The notes under the pieces are model-generated. The model was given only the letters and a program-made list of their open reading frames with translations, had not been told where the DNA came from and ran no database searches. Shown here in pieces: positions 28,425-55,731 of a stretch of 64,000 nucleotides of DNA. The position numbers and the translations under genes are program-made. This stretch comes from an uncultured Ruthenibacterium sp. (GTDB lineage: Bacteria > Bacillota > Clostridia > Oscillospirales > Ruminococcaceae), in contig CALXBN010000036.1 of assembly GCA_944386555.1 (NCBI GenBank), forward strand, positions 1-64,000, read 5' to 3'. Within the stretch, counting starts at the first letter, position 1; each line of letters opens with the position of its first letter.

Positions 28425-29456
28425 ATGGATTCTTTTTTGCTGACGGTGGTGGCTGCGGTGTTGGTTTTCAGCGCCGTCATCCTCATCCACGAGCTGGGCC
28501 ATTTTCTGGTAGCCAAGGCCAGCGGCATCAAAGTGAATGAGTTCTCTTTGGGTATGGGGCCGCTGCTGTTCAAATTTCAAAAAGGCGAAACGCAGTACTC
28601 CGTGCGGCTGCTGCCTGTGGGCGGCTATGTAAGCATGGAGGGCGAGGACGAGGACAGCCCGGATCCGCGCTCGTTCCAGCGCGCGCCCGTGGGCCGGCGC
28701 ATTTTGGTGACGGTGGCCGGCGCGGTGATGAACCTGCTGCTGGGCTTTGCGGTGCTGATCGCCGTGGTCTGTATGCAGGATTCCATTCTCAGCCGCACGG
28801 TGGGCGCCTTTTACCCCGGCGCCGCCACCGAGGCCCAGGGCTTGCAGGTAGGCGACACCATCCTGGCGGTGAACGGCCGGCGCTGCTTTATTGCCAACGA
28901 CGTCAGCTATGAATTCGCACGCACCCAGAACGCCACTGCGGACCTGACGGTGCTGCGGGACGGCAAAAAGGTGGAACTGAAAGGGATCCAGTTCGACACC
29001 CGTACCGATGAAGATGGATACACCTACATGGTCATCGACTTTATGGTGTATCCGGCGGAGAAAACGCCCCTGAACGTGATCAGCGAGGCCGGCCGCTGGA
29101 CGCTGAGCTTTGCGCGGATGGTGGCGCTGAGCCTGGGAGACCTGCTCACGGGACGGGCGGCCATCAACAATCTGTCGGGTCCGGTGGGGATTGTGCAGGC
29201 CATCGGCGAGGCCACCAGCTACGGGCTGGATTCTCTGCTGCTGCTGCTGGCGCTGATCACCGTGAATCTGGGCGTGTTCAACCTGCTGCCCGTGCCCGCG
29301 CTGGACGGCGGGCGGCTGATCTTCCTGCTCATCGAGGCAGTCCGGCGCAAGCCAGTGCCGCAGAAATACGAGATCGCCGTGAACGCGGCGGGCTTTGTGC
29401 TGCTGATTGGCCTGATGTGTTTTGTTACGTTTAATGACATCACCCGCCTGCTGTAA
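28425..29456 (+). CDS. rseP: RIP metalloprotease RseP
   Basis: A 343-residue site-2 membrane protease. Zinc site HELGHF lies in the first membrane segment (about residues 20-25), a PDZ domain spans about 110-185, and NLLPVPALDGGRL near residue 285 supplies the third zinc ligand. RseP-type enzymes cut membrane-embedded anti-sigma factors and signal peptides. GAAAGGTGG precedes the start. Its position between dxr and ispG is typical of Firmicutes. Confidence 0.94.
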   Translation: MDSFLLTVVAAVLVFSAVILIHELGHFLVAKASGIKVNEFSLGMGPLLFKFQKGETQYSVRLLPVGGYVSMEGEDEDSPDPRSFQRAPVGRRILVTVAGAVMNLLLGFAVLIAVVCMQDSILSRTVGAFYPGAATEAQGLQVGDTILAVNGRRCFIANDVSYEFARTQNATADLTVLRDGKKVELKGIQFDTRTDEDGYTYMVIDFMVYPAEKTPLNVISEAGRWTLSFARMVALSLGDLLTGRAAINNLSGPVGIVQAIGEATSYGLDSLLLLLALITVNLGVFNLLPVPALDGGRLIFLLIEAVRRKPVPQKYEIAVNAAGFVLLIGLMCFVTFNDITRLL

Positions 29457-48839: not shown

Positions 48840-51128
48840 ATGGGAGTGAAAGAGCAGACATACGAGTACTTTATCAACCGCGAACTGAGCTGGCTGGATT
48901 TCAACCTGCGGGTGCTGGACCTGAGCAAGGACAGCGCCGTGCCTTTGGGTGAACAGCTGAAGTTCGCCGCCATTTATGGCAGCAACCTGGATGAGTTCTT
49001 TATGGTGCGGGTGGGTTCTTTGTATGATCAGTCTCTGCTGAAAGCCGGCTCCATCGACAATAAGAGCGGCTGGACACCTGCCCAGCAGCTGGATGCCATT
49101 ATGCCCAAGGTGCGCGCCATCCAGCAGCAATGCGACAAACGCGTGGCCAAACTGTACGAACGTGTGGCAGCCTGCGGGTACAGGAAGGTGAACTTCGATA
49201 AGCTGGGCAAAAAGCAGGAGCACTTTTGGAAACAGTATTTCCTGCAGGAAATCTATCCGATGCTCTCGCCGCAGATCATTGACCAGCGCCATCCCTTCCC
49301 GTTTCTGCGCAATATGGGTACATACATCGGTACCCTGCTTAAAGAAAAGAACGCCGCACAGATGTCCTTTGGCATCGTCCCCATCTCCAATCAGTTCCAG
49401 CGCGTGATCTATGTGCAGGATGAGCAGGGGGTCAGCTTTGCCCTGGTAGAGGAAATGATGCTGCATTTTGCAGGGCTGATCTTCGGCAAGCGCGCGGTTC
49501 AGGCGCGCTGCGTGTTCCGGGTGACGCGCAATGCGGATATCAGTGTGGATGAGGGCATGTTTGATCAGGATGTGGATTACCGCACCATCATGAGCGAGCT
49601 GCTGAAAAAGCGCCGCAAGCTGGCGGCGGTGCGTCTGCAGGTATCCGCCAAGGCGGATCACACCATCGTCAGCTTCCTGTGCGGCAAGCTGATGCTCTCG
49701 CCCAAACAGGTGTTTGAGCAAACTGCTCCGCTGGATCTGTCGGTGGCGTCCAAGCTCTCTGCCCGTTTGGCGCAGGACCAGCGCCCCGACCTGTTTTATC
49801 CGCCCCGCAGGCCCATGCTGCCTCCGCCGGGGTTCAACCTGGCCAAGGCGGTGGAATCTCAGGATGTGCTGCTCAGCTATCCGTACCAGAGCATTCGCCC
49901 TTTCATTCAGATGCTGCGGGATGCCGCCCAGGATCCGGACGTGGTCTCCATCAAGATGACGCTGTACCGGGTGGCCCACGAATCGAAAATCATTGAGGCG
50001 CTTATCTCTGCCGCAGAAAACGGCAAAGAGGTGATGGTGATCGTGGAGCTGCGGGCCCGTTTTGACGAGCAGAACAACATTGATTATTCCAAACAGCTGG
50101 AGGAGGCCGGCTGTACCGTCATCTACGGCTTTGAGGAGTATAAAGTCCATTCCAAGCTGACGCTGATCACCAAAAAGCAGGGCAATCAGCTGAAATATAT
50201 TGCTCAGATCGGAACGGGCAACTACAACGAAAAAACCAGCGAACAGTACACGGATCTGTCCTTCATCACCACCGACGCGTCCATCGGCAGTGAGCTGGCC
50301 GGCGTGTTCCACAACTTGGCCATGGAGCGCCTGACTGAGCAGAGTGAAAACCTGCTGGTGGCGCCGCTGCGGTTTAAAACGTTAATGATGGCGGAAATGG
50401 ACCGGGAGATTGAAGCGAAAAAGATGGGCCTGGACGCCTCTATTGTGCTCAAGTGCAATTCCATCAGTGACCGTGAGATCATCGAGAAGATCAGCGAGGC
50501 ATCCTGTGCGGGAGTGCCGGTGCAGATGATTGTGCGCGGCATCTGCTGTATTCGTGCCGGTGTGCCCGGCTATACGGAGAATGTTACGGTACGCAGCCTG
50601 GTGGGGCGTTATCTGGAGCATGAGCGTGTGTATGCCTTCGGCCAGGGCGATGACGAGCGCATTTACATTGCCTCCGGTGATTTCCTCACCCGCAACACCG
50701 AGCGTCGGGTAGAAGTGGGCGTGCGCATCCGGGATCGCCGCCTGACCCGGGAGCTGCGGCGAATGCTGGAGCTGCAGCTGCAGGACAATGTGAATGCCAG
50801 CGAGATGCAGCCGGATGGGAGATACCGGAAAGTAAAGCGTGCCGAAGGCGTGCCGGCGGTGGACGGCCAGCTGGGAATGTATGCTTTGCTGGAGAATGCG
50901 TGGCCCGCAGTGGAGCCGTGCACGGTGCCCGTTGCCGCGGCGCAGGCAGAGCCGGCCCGGACGGCGGCGCCCCGGCCCGGGCGGCGGCAGGCCCGTGCAG
51001 GGCAGGCGCGCCCTGCGGCACATCCTGCTGTGCACCGGCGTCCGGCCGGGCAGACGGGGCATCATGGGCAGCGCCGCCGGCGCAGCCCGCTGGTCAGCGT
51101 GCTGTCACGCATTCTGCACCGCCGATGA
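48840..51128 (+). CDS. ppk1: Polyphosphate kinase 1
   Basis: A 762-residue enzyme that polymerises phosphate from ATP. The N-terminal YFINRELSWLDFNLRVL and FMVRVGSLYDQ, the phospho-His region EEYKVHSKLTLITKK and the IGTGNYNEKTSEQYTDLSF stretch are complete, as is SGDFLTRNTERRVEVGVRI. The last ~70 residues form a basic Ala/Pro/Arg tail absent from most Ppk1 proteins. The start follows GTGAGG. Confidence 0.95.
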   Translation: MGVKEQTYEYFINRELSWLDFNLRVLDLSKDSAVPLGEQLKFAAIYGSNLDEFFMVRVGSLYDQSLLKAGSIDNKSGWTPAQQLDAIMPKVRAIQQQCDKRVAKLYERVAACGYRKVNFDKLGKKQEHFWKQYFLQEIYPMLSPQIIDQRHPFPFLRNMGTYIGTLLKEKNAAQMSFGIVPISNQFQRVIYVQDEQGVSFALVEEMMLHFAGLIFGKRAVQARCVFRVTRNADISVDEGMFDQDVDYRTIMSELLKKRRKLAAVRLQVSAKADHTIVSFLCGKLMLSPKQVFEQTAPLDLSVASKLSARLAQDQRPDLFYPPRRPMLPPPGFNLAKAVESQDVLLSYPYQSIRPFIQMLRDAAQDPDVVSIKMTLYRVAHESKIIEALISAAENGKEVMVIVELRARFDEQNNIDYSKQLEEAGCTVIYGFEEYKVHSKLTLITKKQGNQLKYIAQIGTGNYNEKTSEQYTDLSFITTDASIGSELAGVFHNLAMERLTEQSENLLVAPLRFKTLMMAEMDREIEAKKMGLDASIVLKCNSISDREIIEKISEASCAGVPVQMIVRGICCIRAGVPGYTENVTVRSLVGRYLEHERVYAFGQGDDERIYIASGDFLTRNTERRVEVGVRIRDRRLTRELRRMLELQLQDNVNASEMQPDGRYRKVKRAEGVPAVDGQLGMYALLENAWPAVEPCTVPVAAAQAEPARTAAPRPGRRQARAGQARPAAHPAVHRRPAGQTGHHGQRRRRSPLVSVLSRILHRR

Positions 51129-51157: not shown

Positions 51158-51190
51158 AGACGAGGCAGGCGGATTGTGCCTGCCTCGTCT
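51158..51190 (+). terminator. Strong hairpin after ppk1
   Basis: Thirteen-base arms AGACGAGGCAGGC and GCCTGCCTCGTCT. The tail GCGTT has no T run, so classical termination is uncertain. Confidence 0.5.
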
Positions 51191-51267
51191 GCGTTAAAGG
51201 AATGCCTGTTCTTTTTCGCCGGGCACTGTGCATAGTATCAGTGTATAAAGCAGGGAGGAGAATGCGC

Positions 51268-52155
51268 ATGTGGGAAAAGCAAACCGGCACAGCTGAAGCA
51301 AAACGGGCGGACAGGCCGGCCGATACGGTGCACAGCGGCTGCAGGAAGGAACCGCAGGAGGACCGGCTTCTGCTCGTCCAGATCCTTCTGTGCATAGCCA
51401 TCGCTTTGGCCGTGTGGCTGTGCCGTGCAATGGGGGGCACGCTGTACAGCCAGCTGTGCAGCCGGTGCACTCAATGGCTCAGCCAAGGGGTGCAGTTTAC
51501 CACAGAGACGCCCATCGCCCGCTTTGGAGCTGAAACGGTGGAGGTTCTGCGGGACGGTGTGCAGGCAGTGCTGGCAGGGCTGGAACAGACGAAAGAAACG
51601 GCTCGAAGCGCGGCGCAGCCGGCAGCCGATTCATGGCAGACAGCGGCGCAGCAGCCCGGTGCAGTGGCGCTGGCAGCCGGCGGCTTTTGGCATTGGGAAG
51701 GGCAGGAGGCGCCCGAGGGAGCCAGCCTGGAACAGATCACACTGCAGCCGCCGCTGGCGGCGCCGGTGAACGGTGTGGTCACATCCGGCTACGGGTACCG
51801 GAAAAACCCGGTCAACGGTATCGGTGATTTCCATGCGGGTGTGGATATTGCCTGTGCAGAAGGGACACCGGTGGGTGCATGCAGGGAGGGGCAGGTAGCT
51901 TTTACGGGCAGCAATGACGTTCGGGGAAATTATCTGGTAATTCGCCATGGCGGCGGCGTGCAGACACTGTACCAGCATTTGGCGTGCATCGTGGTGCGCC
52001 CGGGCCAGCGCATTGACGCGGGGCAGGAAGTGGGGATGGCGGGCTCTACCGGCCTGTCTACGGGGCCTCATGTGCATTTGGAACTGGAAGTGGGCGGCAT
52101 TTTGTATGATCCGCTGCCCAGTTTGCCCGCGGAGATGCAGGCGCAGACTGCATGA
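51268..52155 (+). CDS. SpoIVFA-like M23 (LytM) domain membrane protein
   Basis: A 295-residue protein with a cytoplasmic N terminus, one membrane segment (about 34-53), a spacer and an extracytoplasmic M23 domain (about 165-285). Zinc ligands are all present: HAGVD (His189, Asp193), LYQHLA (His237) and GPHVH (His268, His270). The start at 51268 lies 7 nt from GGGAGGAG. The next gene, overlapping by 4 bp (ATGA), is a small M50 protease. This pair and topology match SpoIVFA-SpoIVFB, which control SigK activation in the mother cell of sporulating bacteria. A general wall hydrolase is the alternative. Confidence 0.75.
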   Translation: MWEKQTGTAEAKRADRPADTVHSGCRKEPQEDRLLLVQILLCIAIALAVWLCRAMGGTLYSQLCSRCTQWLSQGVQFTTETPIARFGAETVEVLRDGVQAVLAGLEQTKETARSAAQPAADSWQTAAQQPGAVALAAGGFWHWEGQEAPEGASLEQITLQPPLAAPVNGVVTSGYGYRKNPVNGIGDFHAGVDIACAEGTPVGACREGQVAFTGSNDVRGNYLVIRHGGGVQTLYQHLACIVVRPGQRIDAGQEVGMAGSTGLSTGPHVHLELEVGGILYDPLPSLPAEMQAQTA

Positions 52156-52724
52156 GGAAAGAGAATTCGGTGCTTCCGGTGCTGGCCTGTGCAGCTTTGG
52201 CTGCTGGACTTTTGTGGGATCCCATGGGCCTGCTGCGTATGGCATTGCTGTGCAGCGCCGTGCATGAAGCGGGTCATATGTTTGTCTGGCGGCTGTGTGC
52301 CGGGCGCTGGCCTCGGCCGCAGCCTGGGCTGGGCGGCTTTTCTTTGCATGGCGCGCCGCTGTCCGCCGGACAGGAGCTGGCCGTGCTGTGCGCCGGGCCC
52401 GGGGCCAATTTCCTGCTGGCTGCCGCTTTGTGCCTGATGGCCCTGCACCGGGCGCGGTACGGCGTCTACTTCCTGGCAGCGGTCAGCCTGTGCACTGGTC
52501 TGTACAATTTACTGCCCTTTGGCGTGCTGGACGGCGCGCGCATTCTGGAAAACCTGCTGCCGGCCCGCTTCGCCGGGCCTCTGTACCGGGTGCAGCGGGC
52601 GCTGCTGTGGGCCTTCTGCCTGGCGGCCCCGGCGCTGGCCTTCGCGCTGCCCCTGCCCGCCGCTGCCCGGGTGGCGGCCATCCTCGCGCCGGGCTACCTG
52701 CTGGCCCAGGGACGCGCCCGATAA
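52152..52724 (+). CDS. SpoIVFB-like M50 intramembrane metalloprotease
   Basis: A 190-residue polytopic protein. The zinc site HEAGH (His38, Glu39, His42) and NLLPFGVLDGARILE (Asp127) form a complete M50 active site across membrane segments. It lacks the C-terminal CBS domain of Bacillus SpoIVFB. Translation is coupled to the M23 gene through ATGA. In Bacillus the M50 partner of SpoIVFA cleaves pro-SigK; whether this one does is inference. Confidence 0.78.
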   Translation: MRKENSVLPVLACAALAAGLLWDPMGLLRMALLCSAVHEAGHMFVWRLCAGRWPRPQPGLGGFSLHGAPLSAGQELAVLCAGPGANFLLAAALCLMALHRARYGVYFLAAVSLCTGLYNLLPFGVLDGARILENLLPARFAGPLYRVQRALLWAFCLAAPALAFALPLPAAARVAAILAPGYLLAQGRAR

Positions 52725-52769
52725 CAAGCGCCCGGCCCCTTCCGTGAGCGGAAAGGGCCGGGCGCTTGT
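52725..52769. terminator. Long hairpin between convergent genes
   Basis: Arms CAAGCGCCCGGCCC-CTTCCG and CGGAAAGGGCCGGGCGCTTG directly follow the M50 stop. It lies between a plus operon and minus-strand remnants and could end transcription from both sides, though T runs are short. Confidence 0.6.
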
Positions 52770-52775
52770 TGGCTG

Positions 52776-53826: not shown

Positions 53827-55731
53827 TTATCCGATGTCCGCTGCCCCGGCGGCACCTTCCACCAGGCATGCCGCGCCGATCAGGCCGGCATCATTGCCCA
53901 GTTTGGCGCGCAGCACTGGCGGAACAGGGGCCAGATGGCCGGCGTAGGCATTCCGGCGCACATAATCGTTCAGCGGGTCGGTCAGGGCCTCGCCCTCGCC
54001 GCAGATGCCGCCGGACAGCAGTACCACCTCGGGGCGGAAGATGTTGACGAAATTGGTGACGGCTTCGCCCAGCCAATGGATGTATTGTTCCACCACGGCC
54101 CGGGCGGCATCATCGCCCCGGCGCATGGCCGCAAAGGGAATGATACCGTCCATCTCGCCGCCCTTTTCCGCGCGCATGGCCGCCAGCAGGCTGTCGGGGT
54201 GGGCGTCGGCGGCAGCGTTTGCCTCCCGGATCAGGGCCGTGGCGCTGCAATAGCTTTCGATGCAGCCCTGCCGTCCGCAGGTGCACGGCACGCCGCCGGC
54301 AATCAGTGTAGTGTGCCCCAGTTCCATTCCGCCGGGGCCGCCTTCGAACAGCTTTCCATCCGCAACGACACCGCCCCCCACGCCGGTACCCAGGGTCAGC
54401 AGCACGGCGCTGTCATATCCCCGGGCGGCCCCGGCGCGCACTTCGCCCAGTGCGGCGCAGTTCGCATCATTGGAAATGCGCAGAGGCAAAGGGATATATC
54501 GATGGAATTCCTGGGCGAATGGAACATTTTCCCAGCCCAGGTTGTTGGCAAATACCACCCGCCCGTTTTCCGTGTCGATGGTGCCGGGAATCCCAATACC
54601 CACGCCATCGCAGTCGCCCAGGGTCAGCCCGGCTTTTTCCACGGCCTCCAAGGCTGCGCCGGCCATGTCCTGAACAATGTTCTGCCAGGGTCTGCCGGCG
54701 CGGGTTTCCCGCTTGGCGCGGGCGATGATCTCACAGTCCGTATCGACTACGCCGGCTTTGATGCCTGTGCCGCCCAGGTCGATCCCGATCCGGTAGCGCT
54801 GGGGTTCCACCCGGGTCCACAGAACTTCGCATCGGCCGCTGAATGTGTACGCGCCGGTGTCGGCGCCTACGAACAGGCTGTCACCGGCCCGAAGCTTGAC
54901 GGGATCTTGGCCGTCGGCACATACCTCGGCCTCGCCGGACAACAGCAGCAGGGAGTGGAACGAGGTGCCGTCGGTACAGAAAAGTTCGCGGCCATCCACG
55001 CTCAGCAAATCTACGGTGAAATATTTGCATTTCCCCAGATGGCCGTCAAAGCTGTGCAGGGGGCGGATGGGGTGCAGCGTAGCCACCTGGCACGCCTTTT
55101 CAATGTGCAGTGCCCGGGGGTGGCCGTCGGCGTCTACGCGGCCGTAGTCATATACACGGTAGGTCAGGTTGCTGGTTTGCTGTACTTCCGCTACCAGCAC
55201 GCCGGCGCCAATGGCATGGATGGTACCCGGGGGCAGAAAGAACACGTCGCCGCGATGCACTTCCACTTTGCGCAGATGTTCGCACAAGGTATTGGTGCGG
55301 ATGGCTTCGTCCAGCTGGCGGCGGTTCATGGGATGGGCTACGCCATAGTAAAGGTAGGCGCCCGGTGCGGCATCAATCACATACCACATCTCGGTTTTGC
55401 CATCCTGTGCCTCATGTGCACGAGCAAAGGCGTTGTCCGGATGCACCTGCACGGACAGATTCTTGGCAGCATCGATCAATTTGATCAGAACGGGAAAGTG
55501 CTCGAAGCGTGATGCGGCGCTTCCCGCCGCCTGCGGATGCGCCGCCAGGTAATCTTTCAGTGTCTGCCCCGCAAAGGGCCCGCTGGCAATCACGGATAAG
55601 CCGTCCTCATGGCAGGAGAGTTCCCAGGTTTCCGCCAAAATGGGGCCGTCGAATTACTTGGCATATTTCGTTTTCAGTGTGCTGCCGCCCCACAGGTAAT
55701 CCTTACAGGCAGGGGAAAGCGTGCAGAACAT
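53827..55731 (-). pseudogene. Phosphomannose isomerase-ROK sugar kinase fusion with in-frame TAA
   Basis: From ATG 55731 (AAAGGAGGG upstream, good promoter) the frame reads FCTLSPACKDYLWGG, a normal class I phosphomannose isomerase start, but codon 26 is TAA (55654-55656). The same frame then continues without break for 609 codons. Codons 1-312 form the isomerase (zinc region VQVHPDN, TEMWYV, GTIHAIG). Codons 313-634 form a complete ROK kinase: GIDLGGTGIKAG, NDANCAALGE, LGTGVGGGVV and zinc motif CTCGRQGCIE. A mannose kinase fused to an isomerase would take mannose to fructose 6-phosphate (inference). A single G-to-T change (GAA to TAA) would explain the stop. Restart at the TTG at 55638 is possible but would lose the first 31 residues of the isomerase. 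Confidence 0.75.
53856..53922 (-). repeat. Intact copy of the 67-bp ROK 3'-end direct repeat
   Basis: This copy sits inside the ROK domain; its partner is 52982-53048. Both run in the same direction and flank the zinc-ribbon gene, 874 bp apart. Confidence 0.8.

Follow-up and report, generated by a model that had tools for sequence, protein, structure and literature searches.

Is a compact pair of overlapping genes in an uncultured Ruthenibacterium sp., encoding a single-pass LytM (M23) protein and a very small M50 membrane protease, the spoIVFA-spoIVFB unit of a sporulation pathway? The pair lies in a stretch of 64,000 nucleotides (positions 1 to 64,000 of contig CALXBN010000036.1, hereafter the window), and a preliminary description made from the letters alone had likened it to spoIVFA-spoIVFB and proposed a role in sigma-factor control in the mother cell. 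We addressed the question with profile and structure searches on the two proteins and their genome, and with comparisons across a family sample of 119 genomes from 118 genera. In the open-licence literature we found nothing on SpoIVFB in Ruminococcaceae or Oscillospiraceae, nor on a LytM/M50 pair in Ruthenibacterium sporulation.

The LytM/M50 locus and its conservation

As read from the sequence, the stop codon of the LytM gene (TGA, 52153-52155) shares an ATGA with the start codon of the M50 gene (ATG, 52152-52154). The LytM gene has two in-frame ATGs, at 51262 and 51268, and we favour the latter because the relatives within the genus begin at or near MWE. The inverted repeat upstream of the pair (Table 1) probably marks the end of the ppk1 transcript. 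Two other frames of the window deserve mention: the polyphosphate kinase frame (window 48840-51128, + strand) runs to 762 residues, 93 of them beyond the final Pfam match, which stops at 669, and is Arg/Pro-rich in its last part, and a 603-aa frame on the - strand (53827-55638) is an apparent fusion of a mannose-6-phosphate isomerase part (PF20511 1-81, PF21621 203-273) with a ROK sugar kinase (PF00480 284-594).

Table 1. Features of the LytM/M50 locus (window coordinates).
Feature	Position	Strand	Remark
Inverted repeat with arms of 11 bp, in the gap that separates ppk1 from the LytM/M50 pair	51159..51189		read from sequence
Candidate promoter GTTCT-N18-CATA	51208..51234	+	pattern upstream of the LytM gene
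SpoIVFA-type LytM (M23) protein gene	51268..52155	+	alternative start 51262
SpoIVFB-type M50 intramembrane protease gene, 190 aa	52152..52724	+	without interdomain linker/CBS domain
Inverted repeat directly 3' of the LytM/M50 pair, terminator-like	52723..52770		read from sequence

The M50 gene is present in 9 of the 11 genomes of the genus, including all 8 of good quality, and a LytM gene lies directly upstream of it in 9/9 loci; the pairing is therefore more than chance. Searching named genomes gave 6 loci, every one from near relatives; the assemblies carry the labels Ruthenibacterium, Subdoligranulum, Faecalibacterium sp. UBA1819 and uncultured Clostridia bacterium. The CATA motif starts the -10 element of mother-cell σE and σK promoters, while GTTCT differs from the B. 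subtilis -35. A GTTCT-N17/18-CATA pattern precedes the LytM gene in 8/9 genus loci, and its single occurrence in the window (0.44 expected) is not significant alone. Beyond the genus the GTTC-box pattern is rare (4/83 family loci, 0.8 expected) and an ATA-type σE-like pattern occurs in 13/83 (2.2 expected), counts for which start positions are uncertain and which missed the window's own site, where the ORF is extended upstream; the genus loci were recounted with the right starts.

Across the family the M50 profile is bimodal, with 106 genomes scoring at least 76 bits and the next matches at most 55. Upstream of these 106 M50 genes we found a LytM gene in 66 loci, a gene for a small single-TM protein without LytM (52-197 aa) in 18 and no partner in 20, the latter two classes being assigned by eye; partners below 35 aa would escape these counts. 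The remaining 2 loci (G055, G061) lie at contig edges and were excluded, leaving 104/106 scored. In all, 84/104 scorable loci have a LytM or small TM gene ahead of the M50 gene, and the LytM domain is optional, since it is missing in 18 of the 84 partners. Two LytM partners separated from the M50 frame by gaps of 237 and 249 bases (G016 and G124) were retained in these counts. Partner and M50 frames overlap in 69/84 cases, 32 of them by exactly 4 bases, although the overlaps may be overstated because ORF starts were taken as the first possible start codons.

An M50 protease without linker or CBS domain

The two proteins bear out the preliminary description, which had seen a single-pass LytM protein with a full set of zinc ligands, coupled by an ATGA to a minimal M50 protease without a CBS domain. 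The M50 protein matches PF02163 (Peptidase_M50, 49.5 bits, cut-off 27.2) over its LDG half, carries HEAGH (HExxH) and LDG, whose aspartate belongs to the M50 active site, and ends together with its last membrane helix; no CBS domain was found in it by Pfam profile search. A pattern search recovered HExxH and the DG motif in 104 of the 106 family M50 proteins. The AF2 model of the M50 protein (pLDDT 92.4, pTM 0.84) matches the SpoIVFB-fold membrane domain: the superposition on SpoIVFB 8vjm (Z 14.5, 175 residues, rmsd 3.2) covers chain residues 13-198 of 288 and stops there, the interdomain linker and the CBS domain being missing. The site-2 protease core fold is shared with mjS2P (3b4r), which ties with SpoIVFB (Z 14.6), ranks first in Foldseek and belongs to the CBS-domain-defined group, and with RseP, which has PDZ domains. 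A profile built from seven genus sequences scores RseP (39.7 bits) and mjS2P (34.2 bits) above SpoIVFB 8vjl (26.7 bits over profile positions 11-186).

A quick tree was built in which the 106 family proteins were joined by 11 ScpA-linked M50 proteins and by 20 SpoIVFB-type proteins found outside the family (picks from the best-scoring among the matches listed, two of them, G196 and G397, from the window's order), a set without RseP. The ScpA-linked paralogues form one clade (100*), the family forms a separate clade (1 change, support 89) and the 20 outside proteins require 2 changes. A position outside SpoIVFB had been named as grounds for abandoning the assignment; within the sampling of this quick tree the M50 protein appears to stand with the SpoIVFB-type proteins, apart from the ScpA-linked paralogue. 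Another M50-like membrane protein of the same genome (L004, G000:C49:28185-28472) has 410 aa, a HEAGH motif and an extended C-terminal part.

The short chain is a property of the family, where the median length of the M50 frame is 196 aa. Two longer frames occur in G117 (257 aa) and G081 (368 aa), the latter with an over-extended start, as its HExxH motif lies far in. Eleven frames measure only 138-158 aa (G056, G022, G067, G035, G030, G119, G018, G090, G026, G064, G037); several of these stop just after the LDG helix and would be still smaller site-2 protease cores, and that of G037 is broken by a stop. The SpoIVFB-type proteins sampled outside the order have 283-319 aa in 18/18 cases, and in the three long ones that we checked the SpoIVFB match extends to chain residues 269-285, C-terminal part included; the two from the order have 196 and 205 aa. 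Another family of the class has one short M50 protein (193 aa, HEMFH and LDG), so the absence of the CBS domain may be older than the order.

In B. subtilis SpoIVFB the CBS domain alone is described as dispensable in vivo (PMC6242693), while the enzyme lacking both linker and CBS domain gave no processing (PMC6242693, PMC11486902), a point against the SpoIVFB reading: the short M50 protein must grip its substrate in another way, if it grips it at all. Because its chain stops at the position corresponding to residue 198 of the 288 in SpoIVFB, we do not place it in site-2 protease group 3, defined in these sources by a C-terminal CBS domain (PMC11486902, PMC6242693).

The LytM protein, its transmembrane module and BofA

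The LytM protein matches PF01551 (Peptidase_M23, 97.3 bits, cut-off 28.7) and has a single hydrophobic stretch over its full length; its predicted architecture places a short tail in the cytoplasm and the LytM domain on the extracytoplasmic side, with a single transmembrane segment and its juxtamembrane module in between. The extracytoplasmic LytM-like domain expected of SpoIVFA is thus present, with its active-site set complete (H191, D195, H239, H270 and H272, numbered from the ATG at 51262) and not degenerate. All five residues are intact in 65/66 LytM partners of the family, including 53/53 from BofA-positive genomes, and the set is complete in 2/13 SpoIVFA-position proteins from outside the family (G353 and G196, the latter from the window's order). 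In Bacilli the SpoIVFA LytM domain is described as presumably inactive (PMC3533761). C. difficile SpoIIQ sets a precedent for an intact zinc-binding LytM domain in sporulation (PMC4982068). The conservation of the active site across the family suggests that its LytM domain binds zinc, perhaps with peptidase activity, and that of the pair is possibly active as an enzyme.

Galperin et al. (2012, PMC3533761) regarded the LytM proteins that clostridia have in the spoIVFA position as non-orthologous displacements. We compared the TM regions of the 53 LytM partners from BofA-positive genomes with those of the 13 outside SpoIVFA-position proteins and found that they align over 44 columns (hhalign, 84.1 percent, E 7.5e-6). 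The outside set includes one protein from the window's order (G196) and three that look bacillar (G149, G193 and G321, the last because its M50 neighbour matches B. subtilis SpoIVFB at 281 bits). Reversed controls gave 2.0 and 1.9 percent, and 24 M50 transmembrane windows gave at most 3.2 percent. Compared with the TM regions of the 18 LytM-less partners, the same 53 gave 97.2 percent (E 3.4e-11); between LytM-less and outside modules the match is weak (15 percent, E 0.0017), controlled by TM windows only (E at least 0.091). By eye, the TM segment opens with a Gln in nearly all partners from BofA-positive genomes. Contrary to the displacement view (PMC3533761), we conclude, with the reservation that the alignment spans only 44 columns, that the TM module is homologous to SpoIVFA, and since it aligns with SpoIVFA-position proteins outside the family, we argue for orthology with an optional LytM domain.

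The presence of a partner, and of this module, goes together with BofA, where "no BofA" means not detected, as the Pfam search missed the B. subtilis control. BofA was detected in 67/84 loci with a partner versus 4/20 without (Fisher 9e-7). With the module cut at 8 bits it was detected in 65/74 at or above versus 6/30 below (4.9e-11), and with the cut at 15 bits in 59/68 versus 12/36 (6.7e-8); kinship is ignored in all three tests, and the module profile, being trained on BofA-positive partners only, favours BofA-positive genomes. LytM partners in BofA-negative genomes score at most 0.8 bits in 7/13 cases, versus 0/53 under 11 bits in BofA-positive genomes; these seven lowest scorers are also short (170-216 aa), yet the likewise short G085 (184 aa) retains the module. 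Kinship-aware tests had too little power, with 6 and 7 supported pairs on the SpoIVB tree (65 rows) and 2 and 3 on the M50 tree; across the 6 pairs on supported branches of the SpoIVB tree, BofA changed in the same direction in 2.1 and in the opposite one in 0.0, at a median p of 0.5. A mechanism for the correlation is offered by B. subtilis, where the SpoIVFA TMS is reported to crosslink to the C-terminal region of BofA (PMC12632252).

Sporulation partners, competing readings and meaning

The preliminary description had advised a genome search for pro-SigK, SpoIVB and BofA, and all were found. SigK matches NF004471 (271 bits, cut-off 252) and falls below the cut-off of TIGR02846 (about 260 bits, cut-off 298.65), a shortfall shared by 116 of the 119 family genomes; its N-terminus, MLGAFISFIASHILYFALHLESSSFPKPLS, is a hydrophobic pro-sequence, as in all of the best 30 SigK loci of the family. 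SpoIVB (361 bits, cut-off 305) is encoded beside Spo0A (247 bits, cut-off 200), and SpoIVA is complete (681 bits, cut-off 460), so that the absence of sigK and the late sporulation genes, which would have counted against the idea, was not observed. The BofA gene (C36:78309-78527) lies on the same contig as the pair, about 26 kb downstream; its product matches PF07441 (51 bits, cut-off 26), scores 37.7 bits with the NCBIfam BofA model (cut-off 53.35) and reads NLLAGYTGVALALNYVT...GAPG, with N-x12-N-x2-T in the spacing of B. subtilis N48/N61/T64, residues reported as required for SpoIVFB inhibition (PMC9042235), and GAPG in the place of the GxPG turn described for BofA (PMC12632252). Contig C47 encodes a further single-pass LytM protein of 295 aa (L286, G000:C47:33689-33982), which lacks the middle histidine of the active site and is, by its architecture, a candidate SpoIIQ.

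The pro-σK N-terminus is likewise bimodal in the family (96 genomes score at least 72 bits, and the following match drops to 58.6), and among the 119 genomes 91 have both it and the M50 type, 15 the M50 type only, 5 pro-σK only and 8 neither; at a completeness of at least 90 these numbers are 76, 6, 1 and 7. Such co-occurrence is expected of a protease and its substrate, and a loss of sporulation as a whole yields the same pattern. Of the 96 N-terminal matches, 24 lie in open frames of only 77-169 aa (for example G092:C70, G109:C64, G045:C10 and G076:C69), which would fit a sigK gene interrupted by skin-like elements; some are near contig ends.

With these partners, and with a TM module shared with SpoIVFA-position proteins, the proposal of a spoIVFA-spoIVFB-like pair with a sigma-factor role is supported, and we regard it as highly probable that the pair is this bacterium's spoIVFA-spoIVFB unit. 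By analogy with B. subtilis, the M50 protein is predicted to cleave the pro-sequence off pro-σK as an intramembrane protease of the mother cell, the TM module of the LytM protein would keep it inactive together with BofA, and SpoIVB made in the forespore would cut the LytM protein outside the membrane to relieve the inhibition. The pair and its genome agree with the B. subtilis SpoIVFA-SpoIVFB-BofA complex in gene order, in an M50 membrane domain with HExxH and LDG, in the joining of a single TM segment to a LytM domain, in the N/N/T residues and GxPG-like turn of BofA, and in the presence of SpoIVB and pro-σK. Unlike that complex, the pair lacks the interdomain linker and CBS domain, has a complete rather than degenerate LytM set and adjoins ppk1. 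With the displacements described for clostridia (PMC3533761) it shares a LytM protein in the SpoIVFA position, and it differs from them as described there in a TM module that aligns with SpoIVFA-position proteins.

The LytM protein might instead be SpoIIQ or another forespore or engulfment peptidase, with the M50 gene behind it by chance. Single-pass LytM proteins with intact zinc-binding motifs, like the one here, do act in C. difficile engulfment (PMC4982068), and there is a weak match to the NCBIfam SpoIIQ model; at 38.3 bits, however, this is far below the cut-off of 250, and we reject SpoIIQ identity. C. difficile SpoIIQ is described as a forespore protein that pairs with SpoIIIAH and is not coupled to an M50 protease (PMC4982068). 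A LytM or small TM gene stands ahead of the M50 gene in most family loci, and the C47 protein is available as candidate SpoIIQ. We give this reading a slim chance.

It also strikes us as improbable that the M50 protein is a general site-2 protease acting on another substrate, such as an anti-sigma factor of vegetative cells, and that the LytM protein serves it as a sensor of the envelope. The M50 profile does score RseP and mjS2P above SpoIVFB, 15 of the 106 M50-type genomes have no detected pro-σK N-terminus, and a survey counted spoIVFB in 56 non-sporeformers (PMC12632252). Yet RseP has a separate gene in the window (28425-29456; TIGR00054 264 bits, cut-off 147.55), on which ground RseP identity is rejected; moreover, 8 genomes lack both M50 type and pro-σK, and several of the 15 M50-only genomes are incomplete, the sigK match of G032 beginning at a contig end. 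A decaying sporulation relic without present function would agree with the small genome (2.2 Mb) and the reduced protease, but we dismiss it as very improbable, since the M50 motifs are kept in 104/106 and the LytM set in 65/66 family proteins and SpoIVA is complete.

If the pair is the spoIVFA-spoIVFB unit, a SpoIVFA-type regulator, reported missing in most Clostridia, is present here with a complete, enzyme-like active site. The family offers as candidates LytM-bearing and LytM-less partners with one TM module, and partnerless lineages that are mostly without detected BofA. Its SpoIVFB-type proteases, naturally lacking the linker and CBS domain whose removal inactivates the B. subtilis enzyme, provide a minimal enzyme for tests of substrate engagement. 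Tentatively, and with considerable doubt, we suggest that SpoIVFA in this family was overlooked, not missing: a TM module co-inherited with BofA and a competent LytM peptidase would let one protein gate SpoIVFB and cut or sense peptidoglycan between the two membranes, the protease would engage pro-σK without a linker, and σK activation would follow the state of the cell wall. Should the LytM domain be active, the spore checkpoint may read the cell wall.
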